Below, piece after piece: positions 11,586-13,558 of a stretch of DNA of 64,000 nucleotides. The position numbers and the translations under genes were made by a program. The stretch comes from Acidimicrobiia bacterium (GTDB taxonomy: Bacteria; Actinomycetota; Acidimicrobiia; Acidimicrobiales; MedAcidi-G1): the NCBI GenBank assembly GCA_012959995.1, contig DUCC01000016.1, forward strand, positions 1-64,000. The letters run 5' to 3'. The first letter of the stretch is position 1. Every line of letters starts with the position of its first letter. The notes beneath the pieces were generated by a model, which did not search any database, had not been told where the DNA came from, and saw only the letters and a list, made by a program, of their open reading frames with translations.

Positions 11586-13031
11586 GTGCCCACAAAAGTT
11601 GACTTCGCTCCCCTCCCCGATGGGGTTTCGGTAATTGTTAAATCCGACTGCCCGGCCTGCTTGCTTGCTGCCGATGTGCTTATCGAACTTGGCCAGGCCG
11701 GCCACATCACCTTGTACAGCCAAGACGACCCGGCTTTCCCCACCACCGGAGATTGGGTAGTCGACGACACAGATCTCGCCGTCAGTTGGCACCACGACAT
11801 CGAGGCCGTACCCACCCTCATAAAAACCGTAGACGGTGTAGAAACCGAACGCACCGCAGGTTGGAACCGTGCCGCATGGGAATCAATTACCGGCGTTACC
11901 GGTTTGGGCCCTGATCTGGTGGATTTTAAACCTGGTTGAGGTTCTCTTTCGGTTGACCCCGGGCGGGTCGACGAACTAAGGGTCCGCTACAGCGGAAACA
12001 CCATCCAGGCCCGCCGCATTGAGGTCGCCACCCTCGAAGACCCTATGGAAGCGCTTTTTGACCGAGGATGGACCGACGGCCTTCCGGTGGTTCCTCCTAC
12101 CGAAGCTCGGGTTTTACGCATGTTGGAAGGCACCACCCGAAGCCCCCAAGATGTGGTGGCTGTCGTGCCCCCCGATTTAGCAGAATGCACAGTAGAAAAA
12201 GCGGCCATTAACGCGGTGATGGCCGGTTGCTTGCCCGAATATTTTCCGGTGGTTTTAACCGCGCTCGAAGCTATCTGCACCGACCAATTCAACATGCACG
12301 GGGTGCTGGCCACCACCATGTCGGTGGGGCCCATCTTTGTGGTTAACGGGCCTATAACCGAACGCATTGGCATGAACTCTGGCGTCAACGTGTTGGGTCA
12401 CGGCAACCGTGCCAACAGCACCATCGGTCGTGCGGTGCAACTCATTGTTCGTAATCTCGGCGGTGGTGCTCCCGGCGGCATTGACCGAGCCACCTTAGGA
12501 CATATGGGCAAACAAGGTTTTTGCTTCGCTGAAGCACCTTCTGCCTGGACCTCGCTGGCCCAAGAAGAAGGGTTCACCGCCCAGCAAAATACGGTGACCG
12601 CTTTCGCCGGGGAAGGCCCGCGCTTACTTTTTGATCAACAAAGCCGCAGCCCAGAATCGTTAGTACGTATGTTGGCTGACGGTTTACGCTCTACCGTGTC
12701 TTCTCGCATGGTCATGGGCATTGATGCCATGTTGGTGCTCTCGCCCGAGCACCTGTCCCGGTTTGTTGATGCCGGATGGGACCGCTCACGTTTTCTGACT
12801 GAACTGAGTGAACTTTTGGTCATTGACGCCGATGACATTATTGTGGGCGCTCACGGCATTGACGAGGGCATCCCAACCGGTTTTGCTGGCCTGCAACTCC
12901 CCAAGTTTCGCCCCGGCGGTTTGCTGATCGTTCACGCCGGGGGGTCCGCTGGTTTGTTCTCGGCCATCATCGGCGGTTGGCTAAACGGAAACACCGGCAG
13001 CGACCCGGTTACCAAGGAGATACCACTATGA
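11586..13031 (+). CDS. Selenoprotein: thioredoxin-like CPAC domain, in-frame UGA (Sec118), large C-terminal domain
   Basis: Two open frames in the same phase, 11586-11936 and 11940-13031, are separated only by a TGA at 11937-11939. Read as selenocysteine they make one 481-residue protein. Residues 1-117 look like a thioredoxin fold: SDCPAC with Cys22/Cys25, and EAVPT as a cis-proline candidate. Sec118 lies in FKPGUGSLSVDPGRV. A roughly 360-residue domain follows, starting ALFDRGWTDGLPVVPPT and holding glycine-rich HGNRANSTIGRAV. The only start codon available between the two halves is an ATG at 12045, 105 bases after the TGA, and the coding-like sequence between them argues for readthrough. 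A stem-loop follows the TGA. The stop overlaps the next gene's ATG. I know of no assigned enzyme activity; a thiol/selenol redox role is inferred. The GTG start lacks a clear ribosome site. Confidence 0.88.
11952..11972 (+). promoter_or_regulatory. Bacterial SECIS candidate after UGA 11937
   Basis: GTTGACCC (11952-11959) pairs fully, with one G-U, to GGGTCGAC (11965-11972) around the five-base loop CGGGC. The stem begins 12 nucleotides after the UGA. SelB-type recognition elements lie just downstream of the Sec codon in bacteria and have a short stem with G-containing loop, which fits. Actual SelB binding is inferred. Confidence 0.75.
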
Positions 13032-13558
13032 CCCAAAACTTAAATGCCGTAATGCTGGACCCCACCGCAGAAAACCAGCCCGAGCAACGGCCTCTCTGTG
13101 ACCGTCCCGCCACGCTCCAAGGTTTGACCGTGGGCTTGTTAGATATTTCTAAACCTCGGGGCAACGTGTTTTTAGATCATCTCGAAACACTGTTGAGTGG
13201 CCAGGGGGCCGAAGTGCGCCGGTACGTCAAACCCACCTTTGCCAAACCAGCTCCGGTTGACCTGCGCCACGAAATCGCCACCAGTTGCCATGCGGTTATT
13301 GAAGCACTCGCCGATTGAGGTTCTTGTACCACGTGCAGTGTGCACGACATCAACGATTTTGAACGGCGAGGCATCCCCGGGGTTTTTGTGGCCTCCGCCC
13401 CTTTTGTGGACGCTGCGGAAATCCAAGCCAAAGCGCTGGGTCTTGAGGTAGCACGCGTATTCACCACTCACCCTATTCAGGACCGCACTGACCATGAGAT
13501 GCGATCACTGGCCGAAACCGCTTTTGCGCAACTGGTAGAAAAAATCACCGCCCCGTAG
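13028..13558 (+). CDS. UGSC-family selenoprotein (Sec97-Gly-Ser-Cys)
   Basis: Two in-phase frames, 13028-13315 and 13319-13558, are joined by TGA at 13316-13318, giving a 176-residue protein. The decoded motif is EALADUGSCTTCSVHD, with Sec97, Cys100 and Cys103. This is the defining Sec-Gly-Ser-Cys signature of a family known as UGSC (seleno)proteins, in which Cys can replace Sec in homologues. The N-terminal half (GLTVGLLDISKPRGNVFLDHLE) and C-terminal half (IPGVFVASAPFVDAA) suggest an alpha/beta fold. A strong ribosome site AAGGAG at 13014-13019 precedes the ATG, which overlaps the previous TGA stop as ATGA. A stem-loop follows the UGA. Function is unknown; it is probably a partner of the preceding selenoprotein. 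Confidence 0.92.
13332..13346 (+). promoter_or_regulatory. Bacterial SECIS candidate after UGA 13316
   Basis: CGTGCA (13332-13337) and TGCACG (13341-13346) form a perfect six-pair stem around a GTG loop, starting 13 nucleotides after the UGA codon. Position and size fit a SelB-recognised element. The stem also encodes the TCSV residues, so it is constrained by both RNA and protein. Confidence 0.72.

Follow-up and report, generated by a model that had tools for sequence, protein, structure and literature searches.

What is the function of two overlapping genes, each interrupted by one in-frame TGA, at positions 11586-13558 of contig DUCC01000016.1 (assembly GCA_012959995.1) from an uncultured marine Acidimicrobiia bacterium? 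The window, that is the whole stretch of 64,000 nucleotides analysed, is contig C16 of a 2.03 Mb assembly (genome G000) that is about 97% complete. The original prediction, made from the letters alone, had described a selenoprotein operon of unknown function, and its landmarks can be read directly: a TGA inside each gene (11937 and 13316), an ATGA shared by the stop of gene 1 and the start of gene 2 (13028-13031), and the ribosome-binding site AAGGAG, with products of 481 and 176 residues. The answer put forward here is that the pair probably encodes a two-component selenoenzyme, driven by thioredoxin, which reduces a small organic substrate. The features on which the argument rests, with selenocysteine as Sec or U and the selenocysteine insertion sequence as SECIS, are the following:

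11586 to 13031, plus strand: gene 1, from a plausible GTG start at 11586 to a TGA stop at 13029-13031; thioredoxin-like domain, PG[U]GS linker and UGSC-partner domain, 481 residues, with Sec118 encoded by TGA
11601 to 11900, plus strand: domain with thioredoxin fold, approximately residues 6-105 of gene 1 (Foldseek, VIA, TIGR01068)
11649 to 11660, plus strand: CPAC redox motif of gene 1 (homologue alignment)
11937 to 11939, plus strand: TGA codon of Sec118 in gene 1 (of 94 homologues, 90 have Cys and 4 have TGA)
11952 to 11972, plus strand: putative SECIS hairpin of gene 1, stem GUUGACCC/GGGUCGAC, loop CGGGC
12033 to 13022, plus strand: UGSC-partner domain, approximately residues 150-479 of gene 1 (modelled in neither Pfam nor NCBIfam)
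13014 to 13019, plus strand: ribosome-binding site AAGGAG of gene 2 (sequence)
13028 to 13558, plus strand: gene 2, UGSC family selenoprotein, from ATG at 13028 to a TAG stop at 13556-13558, 176 residues including Met (NF041046, PF24696)
13316 to 13318, plus strand: TGA codon for Sec in the U-G-S-C-T-T-C motif of gene 2 (TGA in 86 of 87 homologues, TAG in 1 of 87)
13330 to 13348, plus strand: hairpin of the gene 2 SECIS, whose core reads ACGUGCA-GUG-UGCACG in the window and GUCGUGCA/UGCACGAC in the family consensus

The reading of both TGAs as sense codons was examined in 94 full-length homologues of gene 1 and 87 neighbouring homologues of gene 2, which together comprise 59,155 aligned columns. 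In-frame stops occur 87 times at position 96 of gene 2 (86 TGA, 1 TAG) and four times at position 118 of gene 1, all TGA; the sole in-frame stop elsewhere lies near the C-terminus of one gene 2. Such a concentration at exactly two sites is far beyond chance, and on this comparative evidence both TGAs are selenocysteine codons. At position 118 the remaining 90 gene 1 homologues carry cysteine (TGC or TGT). One marine Acidimicrobiaceae group, with which gene 1 of the window clusters in the tree, contains Sec118 forms beside a member with Cys (L084); a further Sec118 form belongs, separately, to a proteobacterium (L140). Supported branches of the tree force no fewer than three changes at this position. 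Judged from the alignments, Sec is near-universal in gene 2 of the fused family (the pairs whose gene 1 carries a thioredoxin domain), and in gene 1 it is an optional, lineage-specific replacement of Cys in the PG[C/U]GS motif. Several relatives of gene 2 from unfused pairs, in which the partner lacks the thioredoxin domain, have Cys at the Sec position, haloarchaeal proteins among them.

The genome also holds the complete machinery for which the original prediction had proposed to look: a tRNA-Sec with anticodon UCA, selA with selB directly adjoining, and selD (G000:C20:36449-37369, L190). The latter contains one in-frame TGA itself, and the selenophosphate synthetase of this genome is therefore probably a selenoprotein as well. 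The single TAG at the Sec position belongs to the UGSC gene of Candidatus Blastococcus massiliensis (L095:7425-7925), whose tRNA-Sec (L220:1501-1592) has the anticodon CUA and is labelled tRNA-Pyl by ARAGORN. Recoding of UAG as Sec in Geodermatophilaceae, UGSC proteins included, has already been published (PMC5330540), and this organism is a further case of it.

A hairpin downstream of the Sec codon is well defined in gene 2. Over eight pairs and 87 sequences the consensus stem GUCGUGCA/UGCACGAC, closed by a GU-containing loop, forms 94.5% standard pairs, compared with at most 58% for a stem slid along the same alignment. Synonymous codons within the hairpin are frozen (Ser101 TCG in 74/76, Cys102 TGC in 85/87, Ser103 AGT in 75/75, Val104 GTG in 58/58, Asp106 GAC in 85/87), and codons just beyond it vary freely, all of which points to the downstream SECIS hairpin that decoding of gene 2 would require. 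For gene 1 the hairpin is putative. The loop window reads GGG in all four TGA genes and in 13 of the 90 Cys genes (Fisher p 8e-4), a difference that is only suggestive because three of the four TGA genes are related, and the total hairpin energy 3' of the TGA does not differ between the Cys genes and the TGA genes (n=4). One might suppose that the TGA of gene 1 results from an error, or that translation truly stops there, leaving gene 2 as the only selenoprotein and gene 1 broken or ending at residue 117. The predominance of Cys at position 118 and a post-TGA hairpin not clearly stronger than that of the Cys genes would fit this explanation. It is nevertheless scarcely credible, for TGA recurs at the exact Cys site in three further genomes, one of them that of the distant proteobacterium, with downstream coding conserved (68% identity in L072), no other stop interrupts any gene 1, and the loop triplet is shared by the TGA genes. 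The claim that both genes encode selenoproteins thus holds, on Sec/Cys exchange, SECIS evidence and the Sec machinery. When the window was scanned for further genes interrupted by TGA, no convincing example emerged.

The Sec-Gly-Ser-Cys motif at 13316 had been assigned to the UGSC type, and gene 2 indeed scores above both curated cut-offs of that family (NF041046, 151.1 bits against 125; PF24696, 146.2 bits against 25), with U-GS-C-xx-C retained throughout the fused-type proteins. The system is undescribed only in part. UGSC proteins have been catalogued since 2008 as an abundant family of the GOS selenoproteome, of unknown function and with a 'likely Trx-like fold'; with 255 selenoproteins in the GOS set they were among the commonest families of surface water, and some were fused to a domain named 'Unknown_1', possibly the partner domain considered here (PMC2398784). 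No paper found in the literature search assigns UGSC a function, and reviews continue to list the family without one.

A direction can now be proposed nonetheless, from the kinship of UGSC and from the thioredoxin system in or beside its partner. When 30 UGSC members were scanned singly, 23 matched the glycine reductase selenoprotein B model TIGR01917 (best E 7e-7), and 17, 6 and 2 matched GrdF, GrdH and PrdB, respectively. Profile-profile alignment with 13 actinobacterial GrdB proteins (hhalign) placed Sec upon Sec over 79 columns with E 6e-4. Thus, by sequence comparison, UGSC is homologous, around the UxxCxxC site, to the Sec-bearing C-terminal region of the Sec subunits of glycine, sarcosine, betaine and D-proline reductases; in GrdB this motif is thought to interact with GrdA (PMC13188914). 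The link is absent from the selenoprotein reviews consulted in the literature search. Sequence searches returned no solved relative of UGSC or of GrdB. The AF2 model of UGSC (pLDDT 92.6) alternates beta strands and alpha helices in a Rossmann or flavodoxin-like manner, and among the matches listed are receiver-domain, periplasmic-binding, LarB and lumazine-synthase-like folds and no thioredoxin, so that the predicted fold looks Rossmann-like rather than thioredoxin-like.

A thioredoxin domain resides in gene 1. The N-terminus of this gene's product adopts a predicted thioredoxin fold (Foldseek probability 1.00; VIA Z 8.6, root-mean-square deviation 2.6 over 86 aligned residues), TIGR01068 matches in 12 of 29 members, and the CxxC of the CPAC motif is kept in essentially all homologues. 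The linker PG[U/C]GS follows, and then the partner domain, some 330 residues long and shared by over 570 relatives in conserved form, for which neither a Pfam or NCBIfam match of its own nor, by sequence search, a solved relative was found. Comparisons by hhalign of GrdB with gene 1, and of gene 1 with UGSC, found nothing meaningful. Class-I fumarases and Toblerone-fold amidohydrolases, suggested by Foldseek on the gene 1 model, were set aside as too weak and domain-spanning (TM 0.14-0.23, E about 2e-3), and GrdE was likewise rejected as a homologue of the partner (hhalign profile-profile E 0.12 over 17 columns, probability 0.5%).

That the two genes belong together, as was originally proposed, is borne out by their distribution. 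Of 94 fused loci, 84 have UGSC directly 3' of gene 1, no farther away than about 260 nt; of 32 unfused loci, 26 have a UGSC match adjoining the partner gene, in either order, and single-chain fusions of partner and UGSC exist. To judge from these surveys, the partner domain accompanies UGSC almost everywhere and the two genes form a conserved unit; their products probably form a stoichiometric complex. Several variants deserve mention. Four loci (L093, L105, L131, L137) carry a fused gene 1 with Cys118, and no UGSC gene was found in the sequence examined; L105, L131 and L137 form one clade. In the single-chain UGSC-partner fusions L031:793-2808 (minus strand) and L060 the motif is U-D/P-G-C, and Ala replaces the nearly invariant Cys215 of the partner. 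Another fusion, L030:820-2541, reads GTSS in place of the Sec/Cys motif, i.e. it has no catalytic chalcogen, and is followed 3' by an open reading frame resembling an FAD-dependent oxidoreductase. Partner genes of the size of such fusions occur near aconitase X genes on plasmids of Sporomusa (L193) and Vibrio (L192).

The gene neighbourhoods bear on both the electron source and the substrate. On an Arthrobacter plasmid the order is trxB-trxA-partner-UGSC, with trxA overlapping the partner gene; since trxA and the partner gene follow one another here just as the corresponding domains do in gene 1, the latter looks like a fusion of trxA with the partner. On a Roseovarius plasmid trxB stands directly 3' of the unfused pair, in Variovorax SRS16 it is nearby, and the plasmid loci of V. 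boronicumulans and Haloterrigena contain a gene of the TrxB family. Overall, 5 of 32 unfused loci have a TrxB-family gene within 2 kb, and 1 of 80 fused loci has one even when the limit is widened to about 6 kb (Fisher p 0.007), a comparison of unmatched samples in which all five TrxB loci are plasmid-borne. The unfused pairs sit among CoA-transferases, acyl-CoA dehydrogenases and synthetases, TRAP, TTT and ABC transporters and LysR regulators; part of these assignments was made by eye, and the annotations indicate that the surroundings are organic-acid catabolic clusters with varying substrates. No operon gene recurs in all fused loci. About ten Actinomycetota loci (L012, L013, L014, L016, L089, L092, L093, L099, L111, L113) have, directly 5' of gene 1, a gene for an alpha/beta hydrolase weakly similar to dehalogenases or epoxide hydrolases, which the window lacks, and a thiolase lies 3' of the fused pair in five gammaproteobacterial loci.

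These surroundings also speak to the proposal that the pair acts in oxidative defence, as a thiol or selenol peroxidase or a disulfide reductase, UGSC reducing peroxides or oxidised thiols and gene 1 recycling UGSC. Many UxxC selenoproteins are redox-protective (PMC13188914), gene 1 does contain a thioredoxin domain, and AhpD-like or redoxin-like genes occur near some fused loci and near the pair of the window. UGSC, however, is homologous to subunits of reductive cleavage and not to peroxiredoxins, its predicted fold does not look like that of thioredoxin, and the unfused pairs keep company with the transporters and CoA enzymes of organic-acid catabolism rather than with stress operons; we therefore regard a role in defence as unlikely.

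Ten of the 94 fused loci have selA, mostly together with selB, no farther than about 6 kb away; two arrangements occur, and in one locus tRNA-Sec is present too. One could take this neighbourhood, and the metal binding predicted for other selenoprotein families (PMC13188914), as signs of a pair that handles selenium, sulfur or metals, by sulfur or selenium transfer or by detoxification of organometals or arsenic, and is tied in this way to the Sec machinery. Yet a selAB neighbourhood is expected for any Sec-dependent gene, and pairs of the Cys form are known from haloarchaea and from further plasmids, next to catabolic genes, which renders such a function quite improbable. The locus with tRNA-Sec is that of Pseudohongiella sp. 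O18 (L136:6001-11391), where partner, UGSC, selA, selB and tRNA-Sec follow one another in a stretch of 5.4 kb that resembles a portable selenocysteine cassette.

For the thioredoxin-driven reductase favoured here the following sequence of events can be envisaged. Sec96 of UGSC would attack or reduce a substrate bound between this subunit and the partner domain of gene 1, in the manner of the Sec subunits of glycine, betaine and D-proline reductases in reductive C-X cleavage. The oxidised selenium would be resolved as a selenenylsulfide by a Cys of UGSC's own UxxCxxC motif, and this bond would in turn be reduced by the CPAC site of the thioredoxin domain, perhaps via residue 118 of the linker, where Sec or Cys may serve as a relay. 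Cellular thioredoxin reductase and NADPH would recharge the thioredoxin domain. In this division of labour, UGSC would contribute the Sec nucleophile and the resolving Cys, the partner presumably the substrate site, and the thioredoxin domain the electrons. Complex formation, the direction of electron flow, reductive C-X cleavage and the role of residue 118 are what we infer. By analogy with the glycine and D-proline reductase systems (Grd and Prd, reviewed in PMC10298544), the reaction might cleave a C-N bond, or another C-X bond, reductively; as the specific reaction, C-X cleavage is advanced tentatively. Relatives of GrdB have been proposed for C-F cleavage of fluoroacetate (PMC10838667).

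Several observations weigh against this assignment. Only about 80 residues of UGSC resemble GrdB, and no Grd/Prd model is matched above its curated cut-off. The partner domain shows no similarity to GrdE, and GrdE (PF09338) is absent from the genome of the window; the pyruvoyl-type activation of Grd and Prd therefore has no visible counterpart. Proximity to TrxB is a minority feature, confined to plasmid-borne unfused loci, and a few fused loci lack UGSC despite available downstream sequence. Finally, the pair of the window is flanked by unrelated genes (MBL hydrolase, MutY), so that no local gene names the substrate.

In comparison with known systems, gene 2 shares motif and Sec with the UGSC family as listed, which is without function and thought to have a Trx fold; the present analysis links it with a partner, a thioredoxin system and GrdB/PrdB, and predicts a Rossmann-like fold for it. 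GrdB, GrdF and GrdH (PF07355) and PrdB (TIGR04483) have a co-linear Sec-containing UxxCxxC site in common with UGSC (79 columns, E down to 7e-7), and the Grd and Prd systems are driven by thiols and possess a two-subunit substrate unit, as is proposed here for UGSC and its partner. Gene 2 is, however, not a member of their families (TIGR01917 at 16.3 bits against 602, PF07355 unreported at E up to 1), its length is 176 residues as opposed to about 435 in GrdB, and the UGSC proteins occur in Acidimicrobiia, Proteobacteria, Chloroflexi, Acidobacteria and, in the Cys form, haloarchaea. The monofluoroacetate operon of Cloacibacillus porcorum provides a GrdB-type unit proposed for reductive C-X cleavage of a compound other than an amino acid, and no UGSC protein is mentioned in the abstract of that study (PMC10838667). 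With thioredoxin (TIGR01068, PF00085) the N-terminus of gene 1 shares fold and CxxC; it differs in its divergent sequence, its fusion to a new partner domain and the additional redox residue, Cys or Sec118, that follows. Neighbouring selenoprotein genes of one presumed pathway are also known from the operons grdAB, prdBC, SAO and Tso (PMC13188914), with which no shared partner proteins were recognised.

As far as the searches made here go, the following are new: the kinship with GrdB and PrdB together with a predicted Rossmann-like fold, a thioredoxin-fused partner that regularly accompanies UGSC, a second Sec that is optional, and neighbourhoods with thioredoxin systems and catabolic genes. 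Going one step further, UGSC and its partner could constitute a large, unrecognised class of reductases dependent on Sec or Cys, in which a new partner takes the place of a GrdE-type subunit beside a Sec domain of the GrdB type, and the electrons come from a thioredoxin system, either fused or encoded nearby. Bacteria of sea and soil as well as haloarchaea, of which many are presumably aerobic, would use such enzymes for C-X cleavage of diverse organic acids; this wider proposal is possible, and we make it with reserve. Should UGSC indeed be the Sec-bearing subunit of a reductase driven by thioredoxin, a chemistry of amino-acid-fermenting anaerobes would extend to a much wider range of bacteria and archaea, and part of the reason why UGSC-bearing bacteria retain selenium would be explained. 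Along these lines, the variation between Sec and Cys at residue 118 of gene 1 represents a natural experiment on the adoption of selenocysteine beside an existing selenoprotein.
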